Positions 19,602 through 32,774 of a DNA stretch of 32,774 nt are shown here, piece by piece. Numbering within the stretch: the first letter of the stretch is position 1; the number at the start of each line of letters is the position of its first letter. The translations under genes were made by a program, and so were the position numbers. Source of the DNA: Deltaproteobacteria bacterium (GTDB taxonomy: Bacteria; Desulfobacterota; Desulfarculia; Adiutricales; Adiutricaceae); NCBI GenBank assembly GCA_031264045.1, contig JAISEQ010000257.1:1-32774 (forward strand). The letters run 5' to 3'. The notes beneath the pieces were generated by a model, which saw only the letters and a list, made by a program, of their open reading frames with translations, did no database searches and was not told the DNA's origin.

Positions 19602-21911
19602 TTAAAAATGAGGGCCTTCCTTTGTCCTGTTTTTGCTTCCCTTGGGACGGCCTCTACCACGCTTCATTTCGTTGCTTGATAGTTTAACGATAGACGGATC
19701 ATCCATCATCTTGTTTTTGCTCCCCTCCGGACGGCATTTTCTTTTCTCGTCATCGGAATCGTCAGTTGTAACGGCAAAATGGAAATTGTTCTGTTTGTTT
19801 TTACTGCCTTTCGGGCGTCCTCGCCTGATCTTCCCTTCGGAAAAAGACTCTTGAACGCAAGACGGTCGCGTCTGTGATTGATTTTTGCTTCCTTTGGGAC
19901 TCCCTCTTCCTTCACTCACAGAATTGACACTATTTAGAAACGAATTGTTCTCATGTTGAACATTTCCAGTCTTCTGATAAAATGGATTCTCTAAATTCAA
20001 ATATTTAAAAATTTCATTCTGTTCAATGTCCAAACTTTCAATTATTTTAAAGCGATCATAAATTTGAATTTGTAAATTGCGCAATATTACAATTGCATCT
20101 TTCGTTGAATATTTTGTGTTGTTTAACGTGGAGCTTATTGATGAATATACAATTGTTGCTATAAATGACAGTAAAATCATACCACGAATTGTCTCTTCAC
20201 AATGTTCATTTAACTGGAGCATATCAGCACAATCATTAGGAAATTTTAAAATTGTTTCGATTGATTGTCTTTCAAAATATAATTCAATGACTTTATCTAT
20301 ACCATACTCATTGGATGAGATTAGAACAAATATGCCAGAATCTAAATATGCACTATTAATTTGACTATTTCTGTCATAATCGTTGTCATTTTTAATAACC
20401 GCATTGATTTCTTCTTCAGCACATGTTGCAATATCAAGCATAAGATAAGCAAACATTTTATAACCATCAAAATTTACTTTAACCATTTTTCCACATATTG
20501 CTCTACCGTTATGAAGTATTGTGTTATCAGCTGTTTTGAGAGCAGGACCATGCTCATTAATCAGCTGTTTATATTCTTTAATATTTATCGGCATTCTAGT
20601 GATGAACGGTATATTTGTTGCGAACAATTCTGAAATATTGTATTGAGATGAATGTTCAACATCCATTATTATAATTTTTACGTTAATGTTATGAGAAGCT
20701 AACATGTTAATAGTACTGATCAATAGAGAGTTATCGATGATGTTTTCGCAAGTGATTCTTAAAAACATAGGAATATTGGTATTTATATCGACAACATATG
20801 TGACTCTGATCTCATTAGTTATGACATCGTCATGGTCATTTAATTCAGTCAATAAAATTTTAATATCATTTTGTAATCTTGCACTATCAACAATCATCGG
20901 GGTAAATATTTTCCTTTCGTTTTCTAACTGTTTCATAATATTTTTTAAATTCAATTCAAAAAATCTATTGAAAAAACAATTCTCGCCTAGCTTTACCTGA
21001 AACTCGCTTATCCGCTGTGACTCGACTTGAGCTTCCGGATATAAGAATCTGGCATAAGAATTGTTATACCACCTTTCTGTAAACTTATAATCATCATCAT
21101 GAATCAGTTTGTATGCTACAAGTGATTTAAGAGTGTCAGCAGATTCTGGAATAAGGCTATCTAAAACTTCATCGAGACCAATTTGTTTCAACATCTGATC
21201 AAACATCCAGATATCTCCGAAGTCTAAAACCTTCACATTAGGTAACGAATTAATTTCTGAGTCATACAAGGAAGGACAGTCTCCAAAACCTTGCTCTAAT
21301 GTAAAAGTGAAAGTTCCTCGCTTTAAGCTTCGGAATACTCCCTTATCCTTATCTATAACTTTCCCTAAGTATAATGAATCATGATAAATTTTTTGGTTTT
21401 TTACATAAGTATTTGAAAAATATCTTGCATAACTGGCATTGCCCTTCACTTCATAGCCGATAAAACCTGGCAGCGGAGGAGATAGAGAGATGCTGTCTGA
21501 CAGTTCAGGACAAACTTCAAACTGCACAGGTCGATCGTTTGGAAGCTGCCCCGGCACAGTTTCCGGATGAGCCGACTCGGATTCCAAACACACGGGTTCT
21601 CGTTGTTGCAGAAAAATTCCGCCAGGCTTTCTTATCCAGCAATCCGACCGGTTAGAAATGTGTTCCGACACGCGCCGTCCGTCTTCGGGGTGCCACAGCT
21701 CTCCATCGGGCAACCAAAGTTTACCGTCCGGCAGTTTCGTCCAACCATCCAGCTGTCTTGGCTTGATTCCCGTCACCAAATACCTTCCGTCTGGAAGCTG
21801 AAAAATAACTTTATCAAGTTGAAATCCAGATTCCGACTGGCTGGATACGCCTTCCGGCAGTTGAGTCGATTTCCGTTTCCAAGCCTTTCCCTGTCTGTCC
21901 ATAAAATACAC
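19602..21911 (-). CDS. Large IS1634/IS4-like DDE transposase with AT-hook-like C-terminal tail
   Basis: 769-aa ORF. TPMIVDSARLQND and KIIIMDVEHSSQYNISELFATNIPFITRMP (candidate catalytic Asp residues); VIELYFERQSIETILKFPNDCADMLQLNEHCEETIRGMILLSFIATIVY (Y..R..IE region). C-terminus has four (R)GRPKGSKNK-like motifs. Confidence 0.8.
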   Translation of the reverse strand: MYFMDRQGKAWKRKSTQLPEGVSSQSESGFQLDKVIFQLPDGRYLVTGIKPRQLDGWTKLPDGKLWLPDGELWHPEDGRRVSEHISNRSDCWIRKPGGIFLQQREPVCLESESAHPETVPGQLPNDRPVQFEVCPELSDSISLSPPLPGFIGYEVKGNASYARYFSNTYVKNQKIYHDSLYLGKVIDKDKGVFRSLKRGTFTFTLEQGFGDCPSLYDSEINSLPNVKVLDFGDIWMFDQMLKQIGLDEVLDSLIPESADTLKSLVAYKLIHDDDYKFTERWYNNSYARFLYPEAQVESQRISEFQVKLGENCFFNRFFELNLKNIMKQLENERKIFTPMIVDSARLQNDIKILLTELNDHDDVITNEIRVTYVVDINTNIPMFLRITCENIIDNSLLISTINMLASHNINVKIIIMDVEHSSQYNISELFATNIPFITRMPINIKEYKQLINEHGPALKTADNTILHNGRAICGKMVKVNFDGYKMFAYLMLDIATCAEEEINAVIKNDNDYDRNSQINSAYLDSGIFVLISSNEYGIDKVIELYFERQSIETILKFPNDCADMLQLNEHCEETIRGMILLSFIATIVYSSISSTLNNTKYSTKDAIVILRNLQIQIYDRFKIIESLDIEQNEIFKYLNLENPFYQKTGNVQHENNSFLNSVNSVSEGRGSPKGSKNQSQTRPSCVQESFSEGKIRRGRPKGSKNKQNNFHFAVTTDDSDDEKRKCRPEGSKNKMMDDPSIVKLSSNEMKRGRGRPKGSKNRTKEGPHF

Positions 21912-22396: not shown

Positions 22397-23056
22397 CTAC
22401 TTTCCGTCAGTTCCCGGAGAGTCATTCACCGCCGGGGGATCTTCTCCGCCGATGCCGGGGGTTCCGTCACCTTCTTCCGAAGGGGCATCGTCGACTCCCA
22501 GCTCCAGATCCTGGCCGAGCATGACCTCCCTGTTCCACAGATAGACGGAAGTCATGCAGACCTGGAGCCAGTCTCGGATCCTGTCTTCGGAGACGCCGCC
22601 TGTGAAGTCCAGGTCCAGCTCGAGCACGGCGCTCCCGTCCTCGTCCAGAAACCCGCGCGAGAAGCGTTTGTCGCGGTTCCAGCCGTTAATGTCGTCCATG
22701 TCCGCTACGGACCCGAGAGTGGCCAGCCTGAACAGCACCGAGCCGGACTCATCGTAAAACATGATGACGCTCCTGTTGCCGTCCAAGTCCCACAGAATGG
22801 TGACCAGGCCGTCCTCATCCGTCGCTATCTCCGCGTCCAGATCCTCCGCAAGCATCAGGGCGAGGAACTTTTGCGGGGTGACCGATTTCACGGCGGCACT
22901 CCCGCTTTTCCCTTCAGGAGCGAGTTTGGAAGGAGGCGCTTCCTCGGGGGCACCGTCCGAACAGCCCCCGAGGGCGACCGTGGCCAGCAGGGACAGTGTC
23001 AGGACGGCTTCGCGGAATTCACGGCAGACAGGGCGGCGTGTTGCTTCGGGCGACAT
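22397..23056 (-). CDS. YbjN-domain-like lipoprotein, paralog A
   Basis: Lipobox-like 'VALGGC'; 'DINGWNRDKRFSRGFLDEDGSAVLELDLDFTGGVSEDRIRDWLQVCMTSV'. Confidence 0.75.
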   Translation of the reverse strand: MSPEATRRPVCREFREAVLTLSLLATVALGGCSDGAPEEAPPSKLAPEGKSGSAAVKSVTPQKFLALMLAEDLDAEIATDEDGLVTILWDLDGNRSVIMFYDESGSVLFRLATLGSVADMDDINGWNRDKRFSRGFLDEDGSAVLELDLDFTGGVSEDRIRDWLQVCMTSVYLWNREVMLGQDLELGVDDAPSEEGDGTPGIGGEDPPAVNDSPGTDGK

Positions 23057-23575
23057 AGCGGGTCCTTTCTCCGGCGGGGCTCAATTCCGCCCGGTCGGTG
23101 GGAGGAGTTGCAGGAAGAGCGGAGGGGCGTCAGGGAACCCTGACGCGGGAGGAGACGTGCCGGTACCGGCACGGACGGCAGTGCGGATGCGGGGCACGAG
23201 GTCCCGGAAGGGCGTCCGAGCCTGAAGGGGCACAGGTGCGGGTACGTCACCCCCGGCGGGGGCAGGACAATCAAGGTCGCCGGGCGCTCCCGGAACCCCT
23301 CCTGCCGGGCAGTGGCCGGTCTCGCCGCGGACGGGCGATCGGATCCTTAACCCCCCTGGAGTTCCCTAATGCCCGTGACGCTCTCCCCCGCCGTATCCTC
23401 GTCCGGCCCTGGGGCCAGCGAAGGGCGCTGAAGTTCCGGAGGTTCGGGGTCCCGGTGCGGCACCTCCCGCGCCGACTTCATCCCGAGTCGACGCATCCGG
23501 CGCGTGGCCTGGCATCGGGCCGTATCGCCGCACTGCCGCACTGCCGCACAACGCTCTGCGGCGAAGAGGGGGGGA

Positions 23576-24145
23576 TCAGGTGCCGCTGTCCGAAGGGCCC
23601 ACTGCCGGGAAGGGGAAGGAGGGCGGGGCCTGAGGTGGCTTGGCGGTCTCCGGTGCGGTACCTGATCCGGCCTCGGGCATGAGTTCCGCCCACTTGCCGA
23701 AGGCGGCCACGCATGTGTTGAGCCAGTCCCTGATCCGCGCCTCGCATACGCCTCCCGCCAGATCCAGGTCCAGCTCCAGCACGGGGTCTCCGTCACCGTC
23801 AAGATACGAGCGCGAGTAGCGCCAGTCCTTGTTCCAAGCGTTCACGAAGGAGCTTGTGGCCCCGGTGCCGACCATCGCCACGTAGAACTGGAGCGACTCG
23901 CCTTCGGTCAGGAACAACACGGTCGTGCGCGAACCGCGTAAAGTCCATCTTACAGCCGAAGATTCTCCCAGTTTGATCTCCTCCGCCTCCAGGTCCATGG
24001 ACTTCATGATTTTCAGAAGCCTCGGAGGGTCAATGCCGGTGACGGCCCGGCAGGGGCGATCGCTCGAGGAGGACGAGGATGAGCAGGCCGCAAGGAGGAC
24101 TGCGGAGACCAGGATGAGGATCGACAGAGGCAGGCGCGTTGTCAT
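23576..24145 (-). CDS. YbjN-domain-like lipoprotein, paralog B
   Basis: Lipobox 'LLAAC'; 'AWNKDWRYSRSYLDGDGDPVLELDLDLAGGVCEARIRDWLNTCVAAF'. Confidence 0.78.
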   Translation of the reverse strand: MTTRLPLSILILVSAVLLAACSSSSSSSDRPCRAVTGIDPPRLLKIMKSMDLEAEEIKLGESSAVRWTLRGSRTTVLFLTEGESLQFYVAMVGTGATSSFVNAWNKDWRYSRSYLDGDGDPVLELDLDLAGGVCEARIRDWLNTCVAAFGKWAELMPEAGSGTAPETAKPPQAPPSFPFPAVGPSDSGT

Positions 24146-24806
24146 TGTTCTACATTCTCGCTGGTTGTTGCGCGGGCGGAGGGCGGAAGCCGGTCGGGGA
24201 GGGCCGGAGCGGGAGGTGAACCTTGAGGTTCAGGGCGGAGGGGCATGCGGCTGGTCCCGGTCGAAGCCGGTTCGGAGCGATCCCGCGCGAGGCGGGTCCT
24301 CGCGGACCTCCGCCAAGGCGTCGGGGGAGGCCGACCCTAACGCCAGCCGTCTGCGCCCTGGACCTTCCGTCGACCGGGGAGCCGCCTGCCCGGTTTTGGA
24401 TAGCGCACAGGCAATTCATGTGCCAGTTCATGAGCCCTCCTCGGGGATCTCCCGGGCAGCGGAGAGACGGACTGCCGGGGCAGGTTCCCCGTCCAGGTCC
24501 GGACACGCCGTCCGGGCGTGAGGCGGATTCGGTTCCGCCTGGCCATGGACATGAAGGGGTCCGCAGGCGCCGCCGAGAACGGGGCGCCCCGCCGGCGAGG
24601 TCAGGAGCCGTAGCGTCAGTCCGCTTTTCCGGGAAAGAAGCCGGAACTGCGTCCGGCGTCTCCGAAGCGAGGAATGCACCGGTCCGGGCACCATGATGCT
24701 GCGGCCAGCCCTCCTTGAAGGGGGGGGCATGGGCCAGGACGTCAGAGCGGGAAGGACCGCCCTGCCGCCCCCCCTCCGGATATCATGGAAGGGCGGCGAT
24801 CCGGGT

Positions 24807-25295
24807 TCAGAGCTTCGATTGTTCCGACAGCTTCGTGAACCAGAGATCGATCGCGTACTGGCAGGTCGTGAAAAAGTCCCGCAGTCGTTCCTCGCAGATG
24901 CCGCCGGCGAGTTCCACGTAGAGCTCCAGGGTAGGATCGCCATCCTTGTCCAGGTAGCTTTTGCCGAAGAGCTGTTCCCTGTTCCACGTCTCGAGTTGCT
25001 GGCTTGTGGCTTCAAGACCGGAAGACCAGATGAGGAGTATGATGGTCTTTCCAGTCGGGGACATCCTTAAGACGGCGTTGCGGCGATCCAGGGTCCATCT
25101 AACGAACTGCGCATCGTCGTTTTGCATGACTTCGGCCGAAAGATCCATGGACTTCATCAGGTCCGCGAGCGCGGGGATGTCCATGTTTTCCACGGACGTG
25201 CAGCTGTCGGCCCCTGAGACGGAAGGAAAGGCCACGAGGAGCGACAGGGCTGAAGCCAGCGCGAGGAGTTGCAGAGGGAAAAATCTGGATTTCAT
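24807..25295 (-). CDS. YbjN-domain-like secreted protein, paralog C
   Basis: ATG at 25295 (MKSRFFPLQLLALASALSLLVAFPSVSGADSC); 'TWNREQLFGKSYLDKDGDPTLELYVELAGGICEERLRDFFTTCQYAI'. Confidence 0.78.
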   Translation of the reverse strand: MKSRFFPLQLLALASALSLLVAFPSVSGADSCTSVENMDIPALADLMKSMDLSAEVMQNDDAQFVRWTLDRRNAVLRMSPTGKTIILLIWSSGLEATSQQLETWNREQLFGKSYLDKDGDPTLELYVELAGGICEERLRDFFTTCQYAIDLWFTKLSEQSKL

Positions 25296-25924
25296 TGGAG
25301 TCCCTTTCGGAAAGGTTGAGAATTTGAGGGTCAGGCGTGAAGTTCCGTTCCGGAGGCGGGAATCCCGGAACCGGAGGTCGGCCGCCGGTCCGGCTGATCG
25401 GACGCGCCTTGCGAGATGCCCCGCCTCAGGTGGGGGCGAATCACGGGTCCCGCGTCTCCGTCCAGGCGGCTCTGGAGGGGATCGCGCCCGTTGACTCCGC
25501 AGGGTGCCGGATGTCATCCGCCTGCTCCGGGACGGCGGATGGCAAGGCAGGACGGCGCCGAAGGGTGCGGGATATCTCATCCCGAGGGGGAGCGGGGTCA
25601 CGGGCCCGTGCCTGACCGGCGTTCCGTGGAGAAGCCCAGGAAGCTTGCTCCGGCGCACGGGAAGGCGCTGCTGCCTCCGGTAGTCAAGCGGCTTCATGAC
25701 GCGGGGAGGCCGATGACGTCCGGGGAGCTCAGGGAGGGCAATGGGCACGGGAGACGGGCGGGGGATGAACACGACCGCCGCCTTGGATCCCTCGGGGCAT
25801 GCTCCGGACGTCACGGTGGCTCCTTACGAGGTTGTCCGGAGGTTCGCGGCTGAGGTTGGGCAGGGGACCGGCATGCTAGCCGCCGAAGGCGGGGGAAGGC
25901 GGCAGGGCCGGACCGACCGCGCTG

Positions 25925-26401
25925 TCAGTTGGACCTCATCATATCGAGCCAGGTTGTCAGCGAGTATCTGATGCTCGAGAACCAGTCCCGTATCCGGCCT
26001 TCGCAGATCCCGCCGTTGAAGTTCAGAAAGAGCTCGATTACGGCGTCCCCGTCCTTGTCCAGGTATGACTTGGCAAAAAGGGACTCCCGGTTCCAGTCGT
26101 TCAGGTTCTGGAGCGTAACGGGCGCGTCGCGCAATATCAGATAGAACCAGATGAACTTTCCATCCTTCATGAGGGCTATACGGGACATGAGGCCCATGTA
26201 CGTCCAGCTGACGGCTTTCGCGCCTTCTTCCCCGGACACGTCCTCCGCCTCAAGATCCAGGGACTTCATGATCGAGAGCAACTGGTCGACTGACACCGTC
26301 TCCATGGGCACGCACTGGGCCTCGGACGCGGACGTGAGGACGGCGGGGAACGCCATCACCGCAGCGGCTACGATGACCAGGAGAGACGAGCCGGGGGTCA
26401 T
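25925..26401 (-). CDS. YbjN-domain-like secreted protein, paralog D
   Basis: ATG at 26401 preferred (MTPGSSLLVIVAAAVMAFPAVLTSASEAQC); 'DWNRESLFAKSYLDKDGDAVIELFLNFNGGICEGRIRDWFSSIRYSL'. ORF is open to 26536. Confidence 0.75.
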   Translation of the reverse strand: MTPGSSLLVIVAAAVMAFPAVLTSASEAQCVPMETVSVDQLLSIMKSLDLEAEDVSGEEGAKAVSWTYMGLMSRIALMKDGKFIWFYLILRDAPVTLQNLNDWNRESLFAKSYLDKDGDAVIELFLNFNGGICEGRIRDWFSSIRYSLTTWLDMMRSN

Positions 26402-26532
26402 GAGCCATCTCCTGAAGCTCCGGAAGGGATTTCCTGTCTGGCCCGCCCTGACCCGGGCTCCCGACCGGGGAGCGAGTCCGGCGGGGAATCGCCCGTGAAG
26501 CGACGGAACTCTCTGGGACGGCATCGGGAGCA

Positions 26533-27024
26533 TCACTTCCCCGGGACGTTCAGCTTCCAGTGGCCGTATCGGGAGGCGGATGTGCGGAAGAAGGCCCTGA
26601 CGTTGTCCTCGCAGATGCCGCCTTCGAAGTCCAGATCCATCTCGAGCACTGGCGAGCCGTCCCTGTCCAGGTAGGTCCGCGCGAACTCCTGATCATCGTT
26701 CCAGGAGTTGACGGCGTTTTCGCTCGCGGTCCCCCCGAGCCTGAAGGCGACATTCAGGTTCGTGCCGCCGGCTCCCACGCTGATTGTGGCGTTCGAGCCG
26801 TCCAGTCTCCACACCAGCGCCGCTCTCCCGTCGGATGCCGTCTCCCGTGAGACGTCGAAGCCAGCGGCGTGCATAATGTCGCCGGTCCTGTCTATGTCTG
26901 GGACGTTTAAGGGCTGGCATTCAGATGTGGTGCCTGCACCGGCGTTCTGGCCCTCGCTCTCGGCGCAGGCTAGAATCAGAATGGCTACGGTCATCAGGGC
27001 CGCGGCTGGGAGTGTCTTTCTCAT
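26533..27024 (-). CDS. YbjN-domain-like lipoprotein, paralog E
   Basis: MRKTLPAAALMTVAILILACAESEG (lipobox-like); 'SWNDDQEFARTYLDRDGSPVLEMDLDFEGGICEDNVRAFFRTSASRYG'. Confidence 0.77.
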   Translation of the reverse strand: MRKTLPAAALMTVAILILACAESEGQNAGAGTTSECQPLNVPDIDRTGDIMHAAGFDVSRETASDGRAALVWRLDGSNATISVGAGGTNLNVAFRLGGTASENAVNSWNDDQEFARTYLDRDGSPVLEMDLDFEGGICEDNVRAFFRTSASRYGHWKLNVPGK

Positions 27025-27181
27025 GATCATCCTCTGAAGAGAGATTGCGCCCTGCAGGATGCGGACGGGCCGGCTGGGGCCTGGCCTCGGGAAGGCGAAT
27101 GGCCCGGGAGAATGCCGGGCAGCTTAGAGGCTTCGGGATACGCGGATTCTCTCGGCCCCGCCAGCGGAGGCCGCAGGGCCG

Positions 27182-27688
27182 CTACTTCTCTTTTAACTTC
27201 TCCCTCCACATGGAGTCTGACGCGATGCAGGTGGCGAGGAAATCTAAGATCCTATCCTCGCAGACGCCCCCCTCCAGGTTAAGGTCGAGATACAGCCCCG
27301 GATCCCCATCATCGTCCACATAGGAGCGGGAGAAGTAGAAGTTCCGGTTCCAGCCGTTGACCTTTTCGAAACCTGCGCCACCTTCCACGAAGGCGGAATA
27401 GAAGTGGAGGGAGGAGCCACCTTCCGCTATCCTGAGCGACCCCACGCCATCGGGAAGGGTCCACATGAAGCCGTGGTTTTTGGCCACGCCCGGCAGATCC
27501 TGCGTCTCGTAACCCTTCGAACGCATTACTGCCCCGAGCGACTCCATGTTCAGGCCGGTGTAGGCCCTGCAGGGATCCGAGGCCAGGGCTGGCGGGCAGA
27601 GGAGATTCAATACAGCCGCCGCGGTAAGGACCGCGCCCAGCGCGACAAGGGCGGCGGCTGGTGATGGTGCAGAGCTGTGTTGGGGCAT
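27182..27688 (-). CDS. YbjN-domain-like secreted protein, paralog F
   Basis: ATG at 27688 (MPQHSSAPSPAAALVALGAVLTAAAVLNLLCPPALASDPC); 'GWNRNFYFSRSYVDDDGDPGLYLDLNLEGGVCEDRILDFLATCIAS'. Confidence 0.78.
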   Translation of the reverse strand: MPQHSSAPSPAAALVALGAVLTAAAVLNLLCPPALASDPCRAYTGLNMESLGAVMRSKGYETQDLPGVAKNHGFMWTLPDGVGSLRIAEGGSSLHFYSAFVEGGAGFEKVNGWNRNFYFSRSYVDDDGDPGLYLDLNLEGGVCEDRILDFLATCIASDSMWREKLKEK

Positions 27689-28356
27689 AGTGACACGCCT
27701 TTCGTTTGGCTGCGGGAACGGAGGCCGGGCGGGAGAGCCCGGACGGGAACTTGCTGGCCGGAACCGTCGGGGCCGAGCGGACCGGAGGGGGGCGGAAGGC
27801 CGGGAGGGCCGGAAAAGCGGCCCCGGCGGCATCTGCAGGTCGGATTCGGGACACGCGGAAGCCTTCCGGATTCCGGCGAAGCCTCCGGAACCTGGCAGGA
27901 AGGCGGCTCAGGACAAGGTGCGCCGGGGCAGGGCAACCGGTACCCGGATACCGTTTCAGTGGATACCGGGAACTGAAGGCCATATGGGAGGTGGCCGTAC
28001 AGAACGGGTATTAAGGAAGATAGAGCGAATCAGCGCGGTTGTCAACCGGAAAACGCAAGAGGGAACGTCTTCCTGGTTCGAGGCCTACCGCGAGAAGGCC
28101 GTGCGCTGAGCCCGTGGACACCAGACAGACGGAACGTCCCGTCGGGAAGGCATCCGCGAAAACCCGGGAAGCGAACCCACTGGCCGCCGCTGTCCGCCTC
28201 AACCCGCATCAAGACCGGAGGCGCGGAAAGTCCCGGGCAGTCGGGTTCCGTACAGGCCGGGGTTCCCGTTGACTTAGGCTGCCCTTTGAGGTAACAACAT
28301 ATGGCGACCGCCATGCCTGTCGGCGGAACCGCGAAACCGTTCTCCGGAGACCCTCC

Positions 28357-28929
28357 ATGCCGCCCGGACGCATATCCCTTTTGCCCTGCCCGCCTAAAGG
28401 ACTCTTCACCCGGCACCCCCGCAGGGCGGAGGGCTCCGTCGCCCGCACGGTGAGAGACGCCTTTGCGGTGCCCGCCGCCGCGGCGCTCGCCCTGGCCGTC
28501 ATCCTTGTTTTCCAGACTCCACTTACCGCCGGCAAGCCCCCCGGAACAGACTTCCGGAGCCGATCGACGGCCGATGCGATCCCGCACGTTCCTCCCGCAA
28601 CGCCCTGGCCCGTCTTGTCCGGGGCGGATCTGTTCTCTGGCACCCAGGACGAGGGCGCATACCGCGCATACCTGGACTCCGCGCTGGCAGCTGCCGCCTT
28701 TGAGGCCGAGCGGTCACGTCTGGAGACGAAGCTCCGGACGGAGGGGCTCACCCCCGAGGAGTCCAAGCGCCTGGCCGAGCTCCCGTGGCTCATTGCCGAG
28801 GCCAAAGCGGCATTCATGGACCTCCTGAAGCGGCTGAAGGACTTCCTGGGGAGCGGTACGGGAGATCCCGTTCCGGACAGCATGGAACTAACCTTCTTGC
28901 ATAGTCAGCCAGCCGGGGCGGAGAACTGA
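28357..28929 (+). CDS. Hypothetical protein with one N-terminal transmembrane or signal segment and a helical C-terminal region
   Basis: 190-aa ORF; 'VPAAAALALAVILVFQTPL' then 'AYRAYLDSALAAAAFEAERSRLETKLRTEGLTPEESKRLAELPWLIAEAKAAFMDLLKRLKDFLG'. Confidence 0.6.
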   Translation: MPPGRISLLPCPPKGLFTRHPRRAEGSVARTVRDAFAVPAAAALALAVILVFQTPLTAGKPPGTDFRSRSTADAIPHVPPATPWPVLSGADLFSGTQDEGAYRAYLDSALAAAAFEAERSRLETKLRTEGLTPEESKRLAELPWLIAEAKAAFMDLLKRLKDFLGSGTGDPVPDSMELTFLHSQPAGAEN

Positions 28930-30134: not shown

Positions 30135-31253
30135 CTACTGCATCGCGGCTGCCGCGAGCCCATCCCCAGCGAATTCCCGCACAACGGCCTCCAGCTCGTC
30201 CGAGACCGACTCGAAGACGTCTACTAGGACCGGGTCGAAATGCCGTCCCCTGCCCTCGGAAATGATGCGCCTGGCCTCCTCCGGGGAGAAGGCCTTCTTG
30301 TACGGCCTGTCGGAGATGAGGGCATCGTAGACGTCGGCCACGGCCATGAGCCTCCCCTCAAGGGGGATGTCGTAGCCTGAAAGCCCGTCCGGGTAACCCG
30401 TGCCGTCCCATTTTTCGTGGTGGGTGAGCGCGATGGTCTTGGCGAGCTGCAGGAACGCGTGTTCGACGTTCCTGTCAGAGATGCGCCCTATGGCCTCCGC
30501 TCCCAGACGCGAGTGCTTCTTCATCTCCTCGAACTCGTCGCGGTCGAGGGGCCCGGGTTTCCGGAGTATGCTGTCGCTTATGGCGATTTTTCCGATGTCG
30601 TGGAGCAGGGCAGAGGGCACCAGCCACTCCTGATCGATGCGGGACATCTCTTCCGGGTAAAGCCCCGTCGCCATGATCTTCGCGACCATGATCTCGAGGT
30701 AACGCTGGGTCCTGAAGACGTGACCACCCGTGGCGTCGTCCCGGTACTCCAGCATGTCCGCCAAGGTCGAGATGACAGTGTTCTGGAGATCCATGACCTG
30801 GGCGGTCTTCTCCCTGACCAGCCCCTCCAGGTCCTCGTTGTAGCGCCTCAGCTCCCTGCGCTGGGAGTCCAGGAGAAGCTGGTTCCGGATGCGCTGGAGC
30901 AGAAGCGGCGCCGAGAAGGGCTTCGCCACGTAGTCGATGGCGCCCAAGGAGAGCCCCTCCAGCTCGGAGCCTTCATCGGACTTGCTGGTGAGGAAGATGA
31001 CCGGGATCTCCCCCCAGACGCCCGAGCTCTTGAGCCTCCTTATCACCTCGAAGCCGTCCATCTCGGGCATGAGTATGTCCAGAAGGATCAGGGCCGGCGT
31101 GACGTGCTCCAGGACCTCGAAGAGCTTCTTTCCCGAGGGGATTGGGAAGACCTCGTAATGGTCCTTCAGCATCGATCTCCCGATCGCAAGATTGGAGACG
31201 TTGTCGTCCACGAGCATTATCCTGTGGCGTGCCAGATCAGTCATGCGGCTCAC
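30135..31253 (-). CDS. Response regulator with HD-GYP domain (putative c-di-GMP phosphodiesterase)
   Basis: REC: RIMLVDDNVSN...ALILLDILMPEMDGFEVI...VIFLTSK...DYVAKPF; HD-GYP: LLHDIGKIAISDSILRKPG...THHEKWDGTGYPDGLSGYDIPLEGRLMAVADVYDALISDRPYKKAFS. Confidence 0.95.
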   Translation of the reverse strand: MSRMTDLARHRIMLVDDNVSNLAIGRSMLKDHYEVFPIPSGKKLFEVLEHVTPALILLDILMPEMDGFEVIRRLKSSGVWGEIPVIFLTSKSDEGSELEGLSLGAIDYVAKPFSAPLLLQRIRNQLLLDSQRRELRRYNEDLEGLVREKTAQVMDLQNTVISTLADMLEYRDDATGGHVFRTQRYLEIMVAKIMATGLYPEEMSRIDQEWLVPSALLHDIGKIAISDSILRKPGPLDRDEFEEMKKHSRLGAEAIGRISDRNVEHAFLQLAKTIALTHHEKWDGTGYPDGLSGYDIPLEGRLMAVADVYDALISDRPYKKAFSPEEARRIISEGRGRHFDPVLVDVFESVSDELEAVVREFAGDGLAAAAMQ

Positions 31254-31271: not shown

Positions 31272-32774
31272 TCAGCCGGCGTCCCCGAAGCGCTCCACTA
31301 TCTTGTCGAGCTCCATCATGTCCACCCTCTCCCTTATCCAATCGACCAGCCCGGGCTCGCTAGCGTAGTCGTGGAGGCTCAGCTCCTCCACCGCGCGGTC
31401 CACCCCGTCCATGTCGAAAGCCCTGCAGGCCCCCCCCATGCGCCTCATCAGCTCCGGATCCGGCGCGTCCGCCGAGAGCAGCGGCGCGGACCCGGCTTCT
31501 CCCAAAAAGGCGCTGAGCTCGGCTATGAACTTCCTGGCGGCCGCCAGGAAGGGCGGGTTGCGGGAGGAAATGAAACCCAGATCCCCCTCCCTGGCCGCGG
31601 CCTCCAGCTCCTGTGCGACCTTGCCCAGCTCCTGCGCGCAGATGCCGTAGCTCGAGCTCTTGATGCCGTGGACGCGGATCATGTAGTCCTTGAGGTTCCC
31701 CTCGGCGGGCGACTCCATCAGATCGAGGAGCGCCAGGGTATTCGTCGCGTACGAGCGGAGCGTGTCGCGGTAGACGTCGAAGTCTCCACCGAAGCGGGAG
31801 ATGCCCGCCTCGATGTCCAGTCCGTCGACGCGCCCGAGCTCGGCCCCTCCGGAGGAGCCGTCCCGACCGGAGCCGTTCCCTCCCTCGCGGACCTGGCCCG
31901 GTGCCGGGCCGGCCGCGGGGACAGACCCTCCCCCCTGCCCGAGGGAGGGTGCCCCCGCGCCCGCGGGGCCCGCAGCCCCCGTTCCCGGCATCCCCCGCGC
32001 GCCTGCCTCGCGCGCGGGCGCGGAAGCTGAGGGGGCGCCGTCCGAAGTCGGCCCCCCCGCCTCCCGCATTTCACCTCCGGCAGATCTCGGGTCGCAGGGG
32101 CCGCCCAGGATGCAGGACGTCCCCCCGTGGCCGGCGGTCCCGGAAGCCTCGGCCGCAGCCGCCTCGTACTCGGCCTCCCTGTCCTTGTCCCTCACCCACC
32201 TCTGGAGGACCCGATCCACCGCCTCCATGTCGATCGGCTTGGCCAGGTAGGCCTGGAAGCCGTTGGCCAGGAACATCTCCTCGTTTCCGATGATGGCGTT
32301 GGCGGTAAGGGCTATCACCGGGATCTCCCTGGCGTAGTCCGTGCCTATCTCCTCGCGGATGATGCGCACGGCCTCTATGCCGTCCATCTCCGGCATCATG
32401 TGGTCCATGAATATTGCGTCGTAGCGGATGGCCGCCTTCCGGATGAGCGAGACGGACTGGGCTCCGCTGGTCACGCAGTCTATCTTCATGCCGTACGGCT
32501 TGAGCATCCCCCTGGCGACGTCGAGGTTGGTCTGGACGTCGTCTACGATGAGGACCCGCGCGTAGGGGAGCGGCCGGACGGCGAGCCGGTTGCCCATTGC
32601 GCTCCGTTTGGCCGAGAACCTGAAGCCCTCCAGCGCCTTGCGCTCCTCGCCGCTCATCACCTCGTCGGAGACCCACGCCTGCCTGACCGTGGCCGTGAAG
32701 GTGGAGCCCACCCCGTACTCGGACTCGACGTCGATGGTCCCTCCCATGAGCTGAGCCATCTTCTTGGCTATGGA
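31272..32774 (-). CDS. Hybrid sensor histidine kinase, 3' part only (end of HATPase, REC, HPt); runs off the right edge
   Basis: KMAQLMGGTIDVESEYGVGSTFTATV (HATPase end), RVLIVDDVQTNLDVARGML...AIFMDHMMPEMDGIEAVRII...VIALTANAI...YLAKPI (REC), YMIRVHGIKSSSYGICAQELGKVAQELEAAAREGD (HPt). Confidence 0.92.
   Translation of the reverse strand, partial: SIAKKMAQLMGGTIDVESEYGVGSTFTATVRQAWVSDEVMSGEERKALEGFRFSAKRSAMGNRLAVRPLPYARVLIVDDVQTNLDVARGMLKPYGMKIDCVTSGAQSVSLIRKAAIRYDAIFMDHMMPEMDGIEAVRIIREEIGTDYAREIPVIALTANAIIGNEEMFLANGFQAYLAKPIDMEAVDRVLQRWVRDKDREAEYEAAAAEASGTAGHGGTSCILGGPCDPRSAGGEMREAGGPTSDGAPSASAPAREAGARGMPGTGAAGPAGAGAPSLGQGGGSVPAAGPAPGQVREGGNGSGRDGSSGGAELGRVDGLDIEAGISRFGGDFDVYRDTLRSYATNTLALLDLMESPAEGNLKDYMIRVHGIKSSSYGICAQELGKVAQELEAAAREGDLGFISSRNPPFLAAARKFIAELSAFLGEAGSAPLLSADAPDPELMRRMGGACRAFDMDGVDRAVEELSLHDYASEPGLVDWIRERVDMMELDKIVERFGDAG

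Follow-up and report, generated by a model that had tools for sequence, protein, structure and literature searches.

YbjN proteins have solved structures but, to our knowledge, no agreed molecular activity, and the locus described here encodes six predicted exported members of this family side by side. The window, by which we mean the whole stretch of 32,774 nucleotides that was analyzed, is contig C221 of a 4.76-Mb assembly (G000) that is 83% complete. Between window positions 22397 and 27688, it carries six co-oriented ORFs, A to F, all on the minus strand. Paralogue F (27182 to 27688, 168 aa) is the first gene of the array and also the first of a two-gene F-E cassette, the second being E (26533 to 27030, 165 aa). 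The others are D (25925 to 26401, 158 aa), C (24807 to 25295, 162 aa), B (23576 to 24145, 189 aa, with a proline-rich tail), and A (22397 to 23056, 219 aa, in which a YbjN domain is accompanied by an acidic C-terminal tail). The start of D was set at 26401; an alternative, longer GTG ORF runs into E.

A Pfam profile search assigned all six proteins to the YbjN family (PF10722), with scores of 36.7 to 46.2 bits and E values of 6.6e-12 to 5.8e-9. Given the gathering cut-off of 22 bits for this family, a chance match is excluded, and the original prediction of six co-oriented YbjN-like paralogues was thus borne out. The shared motif proposed at the same time stood in part: W, WN, D.DG, GG, and E are, among others, invariant in all six proteins, whereas the N-terminal helix MKS(M/L)D(L) is present in B, C, and D only, its counterparts being MLAEDL in A, MHAAGF in E, and MRSKGY in F. 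The other five proteins are 26 to 36% identical to A. Comparison with the orthologues of a second genome, G005, gave dN/dS ratios of 0.26 for B (68% identical to its orthologue), 0.44 for E, and 0.38 for F, compared to 0.05 for the adjacent HD-GYP gene. The orthologue pairs of B, E, and F are thus under purifying selection, as expected of real genes, and no decayed YbjN copies were found in the intergenic gaps of the window. These gaps measure 131 nt between D and E and 151 nt between E and F, while A-B, B-C, and C-D are separated by 519 to 661 nt. With gaps of up to 661 nt, a single operon across the array is unsupported. Upstream of F, positions 28017 to 28045 (minus strand) contain a sigma-70-like promoter match (TTGACA-17-TATCTT, 10/12), which is a match to the consensus only.

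All six proteins start with a hydrophobic signal sequence, the maximum 12-residue Kyte-Doolittle values being 2.3 to 3.1, compared to 0.7 to 1.6 for three cytoplasmic proteins. A, B, and E harbor a lipobox (LGGC, LAAC, and ILAC, respectively) and would be lipid anchored as lipoproteins, while the signal peptides of C, D, and F are of the ordinary kind and these three proteins would be soluble. The computed signal sequences are in good agreement with the anticipated exported family. The accompanying statement that YbjN proteins are usually cytoplasmic was too strong, since exported single YbjNs were found in G062 (two, on different contigs), in G421, and on Thermus thermophilus pTT27. The export of YbjN itself is therefore not new, and what is unusual is the array. 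Indeed, lack of an export signal is usual in characterized YbjNs but is no Pfam criterion; all six array proteins carry such a signal, and so does a Thermus family member (P0008), so that export does not bar a protein from the YbjN family. The YbjN domain-containing protein of Thermus pTT27 (WP_011174341.1) combines a signal peptide with a YbjN domain and is 40% identical to B over 117 residues but, unlike the array, is encoded by a single gene and has neither a lipobox nor a cysteine pair. A literature search that covered few subscription journals returned no paper that treats YbjN proteins as exported or as tandem copies.

AlphaFold2 modeled mature B with a pLDDT of 86.7 and a pTM of 0.82 and the mature form of the divergent paralogue E with a pLDDT of 90.2 and a pTM of 0.83. 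Both models consist of a helix, four strands, a helix, two strands, and a helix. Searching the PDB by sequence gave no match. By structure, the best matches of the B model were E. coli YbjN (6vu7, TM score of 0.71), DR1245, ExsC, and AmyR, and those of the E model were headed by AmyR (5fr7) and YbjN (6vu7). Against their solved relatives, namely, E. coli YbjN, AmyR, DR1245, and the class I type III secretion chaperones, the two models reached TM scores of about 0.55 to 0.74 and a Foldseek probability of 1.0, with E values of only about 1e-3. Together with the Pfam matches, these models support the predicted YbjN fold. The array proteins resemble the members of PF10722 with known structure (E. 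coli YbjN, 6VU7; Erwinia AmyR, 5FR7; DR1245, 4H5B; T110839, 2PLG) in their Pfam match, in the order of fold elements, and in a conserved helix and strand of the dimer region. However, characterized YbjNs are single copy, or nearly so, and have been described without export signals, whereas those of the array are exported, partly lipid anchored, arranged in tandem, and endowed with a candidate structural disulfide. The class I type III secretion chaperones ExsC, SycT, SycH, and CesT have the same fold (TM scores of about 0.55 to 0.7) but act in the cytoplasm, while the array proteins are exported and lack a sequence match to the solved chaperones; no secretion genes were recognized beside the array in the window.

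The same fold was also retrieved for BacA (PA14_16140, 8Q8O) of the Bac/Psp-like cluster, which differs from the array proteins in that it is encoded in a Psp-like operon with BacB, is not exported, and is unrelated in sequence. In three order-level relatives (G013, G015, and G016; loci L033, L034, and L035), a YbjN gene without export signal adjoins genes for PspA/IM30 and a Castor/Pollux-type potassium channel, and at two of the three loci (L033 and L034), histidine kinase- and response regulator-like genes lie upstream. This setting is reminiscent of the BacA cluster, for which a Psp-like role has been proposed (PMC10948618).

The shared motif maps mainly to helix 2, strands 5 and 6, the turn between them, and the GG turn. 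Pairwise identity within the window was 0.49 to 0.71 over strands 5 and 6, their turn, and the GG motif but only 0.11 to 0.33 over strands 1 to 4. AmyR dimerizes through an interface made up of helix 2 and strand 5, and its exposed sheet has been suggested to contact clients; conservation in YbjN has been mapped to the core and the dimer interface, with the choice of client assigned to the surface of the sheet (PMC5398634). A conserved helix-2/strand-5 half next to variable strands 1 to 4 is, as judged from sequence, compatible with the diversified specificity that had been proposed but is no proof of it, and the variability of strands 1 to 4 would equally be expected from relaxed constraint.

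As the best explanation, we tentatively favor a family-restricted expansion of extracytoplasmic, dimeric chaperones or adaptors that bind peptides or proteins and whose client surfaces have diversified. That the six genes are real and carry export signals, that their products have the YbjN/type III chaperone fold, that the orthologous groups are old, and that cassettes were duplicated repeatedly was shown by computation. Each protein would dimerize via the conserved helix-2/strand-5 half, as does AmyR, and the variable face formed by strands 1 to 4 would bind, outside the inner membrane, a peptide or protein client that differs between paralogues. More speculatively, adjacent paralogues such as F and E might pair as heterodimers. 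On this reading, the lineage provides natural variation in the proposed client face alongside an unchanging dimer half.

Five of the six proteins in the window harbor a cysteine pair, formed by an arm cysteine just after the signal peptide and the cysteine of a GGxC motif (C32 and C134 in B), while A has serines at both positions. Among 40 copies, 20 have both cysteines and 20 have neither, a single cysteine being found in none (0/40). This co-occurrence predicts a disulfide, which would tether the N-terminal arm to the GGxC turn that precedes helix 3. In the B and E models, the arm and the GGxC turn each contain a short bridge, and most simply the two would pair with each other. The first 31 copies gave a Fisher P value of 4e-9 for the association, a value inflated by ancestry. 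The best tree computed with both cysteine columns masked needs four joint changes, but a single-clade origin of the pair was not rejected (AU test, P = 0.145), which rules out treating the pair as statistically independent of ancestry. One copy, G004_1, is nested among cysteine-bearing copies in the first tree and has neither cysteine, as joint loss predicts. DsbB is encoded in the source genome; no DsbA-family protein was matched in this 83% complete assembly.

The search for the array in related genomes was successful, but arrays were confined to three genera of one family, with two to six copies in nine genomes. All six YbjN matches of G000 fall in the array; G006 has four copies in its array, G001 and G040 have three each, G002, G003, and G012 have two each, G004 has two plus decayed copies, and G005 has six plus a second pair elsewhere. 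YbjN is present in 11 of the 37 genomes of the family and absent from most of its other genera. In a sample of the phylum, it was detected in 14/247 genomes: six copies in G000, two in G290 (on different contigs), and one in each of the remaining twelve. Outside this family, YbjN is thus rare in the phylum and, where present, nearly always a single copy, and a multigene array is unusual for YbjN, as the original prediction had supposed. Searches of plasmids and phages returned only Thermus and one jumbo phage, Tunturiibacter phage Tunturi_5 (308 kb, PP885688.1), whose YbjN-like stretch (105054 to 105245; 34% identity, E value of 3e-4) is annotated as hypothetical.

The tree gives four groups of orthologues (F, E, C/D, and B) that G000 and G005 have in common, in the same gene order; groups F and E were also found in G002. 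The order in G005 is F'-E'-F-E-(C/D)-B, so that the F-E cassette is present twice. F' branches outside group F and E' outside group E, at corresponding depths, which is the pattern that a single duplication of the pair as a unit would produce. Similarly, in G006, which belongs to another genus, genes 1 and 3 and genes 2 and 4 are sisters (X-Y-X'-Y'), and the array contains two copies, 72% identical in DNA, of a two-gene unit of 997 nt. In G005 and G006, arrays thus grew by duplication of two-gene cassettes, and these two separate events suggest a joint role for the two members of a pair. The arrays of G001, G003, and G012 contain one type only and no cassettes. The claim that the duplication is old holds for most copies, as shown by orthologue groups common to species, but not for all, since the G006 cassettes, at 72% DNA identity, and a near-identical pair in G012 are more recent. 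A more specific proposal, which we regard as rather unlikely, is that the type III chaperone fold underlies a set of extracytoplasmic chaperones, in which lipid-anchored and soluble YbjN paralogues would form disulfide-stabilized heterodimers with one client per pair and multiply by pairwise gene duplication. The predicted disulfide and heterodimer pairs give two direct ways of asking whether the type III chaperone fold can serve as a scaffold for client binding in an extracytoplasmic setting.

Gene loss was also observed: contig C55 of G004 (L022:1542-2659) contains YbjN copies with a disrupted frame beside two intact ones. On contig C437 of G005 (L066:4788-7019), a 744-aa ORF carries a divergent cysteine-pair YbjN domain at its C terminus and is followed by another exported YbjN gene. 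No other domain was recognized in this ORF, and it was therefore dropped as a functional clue.

The copies could instead be redundant, dosage-type, or drifting versions of one ancestral exported protein, under relaxed constraint and without distinct clients. This would fit dN/dS values of up to 0.55, the decayed copy in G004, and the sister genera that lack arrays, but the persistence of orthologous groups and their order under purifying selection, together with the strong conservation of half of the domain, makes it quite improbable in our view. The main rival to diversified chaperones or adaptors is an immunity-type array, in which exported binders, anchored or soluble, would neutralize different incoming toxins acting in the periplasm, with duplication and turnover of the genes. 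Tandem, exported, and fast-evolving genes (dN/dS of 0.26 to 0.55, against 0.05 for the adjacent HD-GYP gene), copy numbers of 2 to 9 among species of the genus, and the decay seen in G004 all speak for it, and an antitoxin role has been put forward for homologues with the chaperone fold (DUF3156-VapD; PMC13092808). However, periplasmic immunity proteins are identified by a cognate toxin gene or by proven neutralization, and neither toxin nor secretion genes were recognized beside the arrays examined. Furthermore, orthologues and gene order are kept across species, unlike in typical swap-in immunity islands, and our literature search, which covered few subscription journals, found no connection between YbjN and immunity proteins. 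We thus consider immunity unlikely.

Within the genus, the array is located between FAD-oxidase, Fe-S, and mdoG(H) genes on one side and genes for an HD-GYP response regulator and a hybrid histidine kinase on the other. In the window, these are at 30135 to 31244 (minus strand; 95% identical in G005) and at 31272 to 32774 (minus strand; cut by the contig end). The array proteins could be sensor accessories that bind the periplasmic domain of the kinase and, with the HD-GYP regulator, tune c-di-GMP. Both genes adjoin the array in G000, G001, G003, and G005, and full-length homologues of the kinase have two transmembrane stretches flanking an extracytoplasmic region of about 240 aa. Nevertheless, HD-GYP homologues occur in 33 of the 37 family genomes and YbjN in 11, and the YbjN genes of G040, G009, and G012 share no contig with the closest HD-GYP match. 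HD-GYP being a core gene of the family, its adjacency is no proof of a link, and we judge this role highly unlikely. Assistance to periplasmic glucan synthesis by MdoG/MdoH seems more improbable still: mdoG and the array are 8.6 kb apart in the window and share a contig in G001, and mdoH adjoins the array in G006, but other genes intervene in G000 and G001, and of the 22 family genomes with MdoG, 13 lack a YbjN match. This distribution rules out MdoG and HD-GYP as obligate partners. Both are common in family members without YbjN, so that the conserved location does not by itself show a functional link to the neighbors.

Two further ORFs flank the array. A small divergent ORF (28357 to 28929, plus strand) lies between the array and the HD-GYP gene; it has no known domain and is kept in G005 (76% over 90 aa). 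Just downstream of the array, an AT-rich ORF (19602 to 21911, minus strand; 28 to 43% GC) encodes 769 aa with a weak, below-cut-off match to a DDE transposase (E value of 3.5e-4) and repeated AT-hook-like RGRPKGSKN tails.
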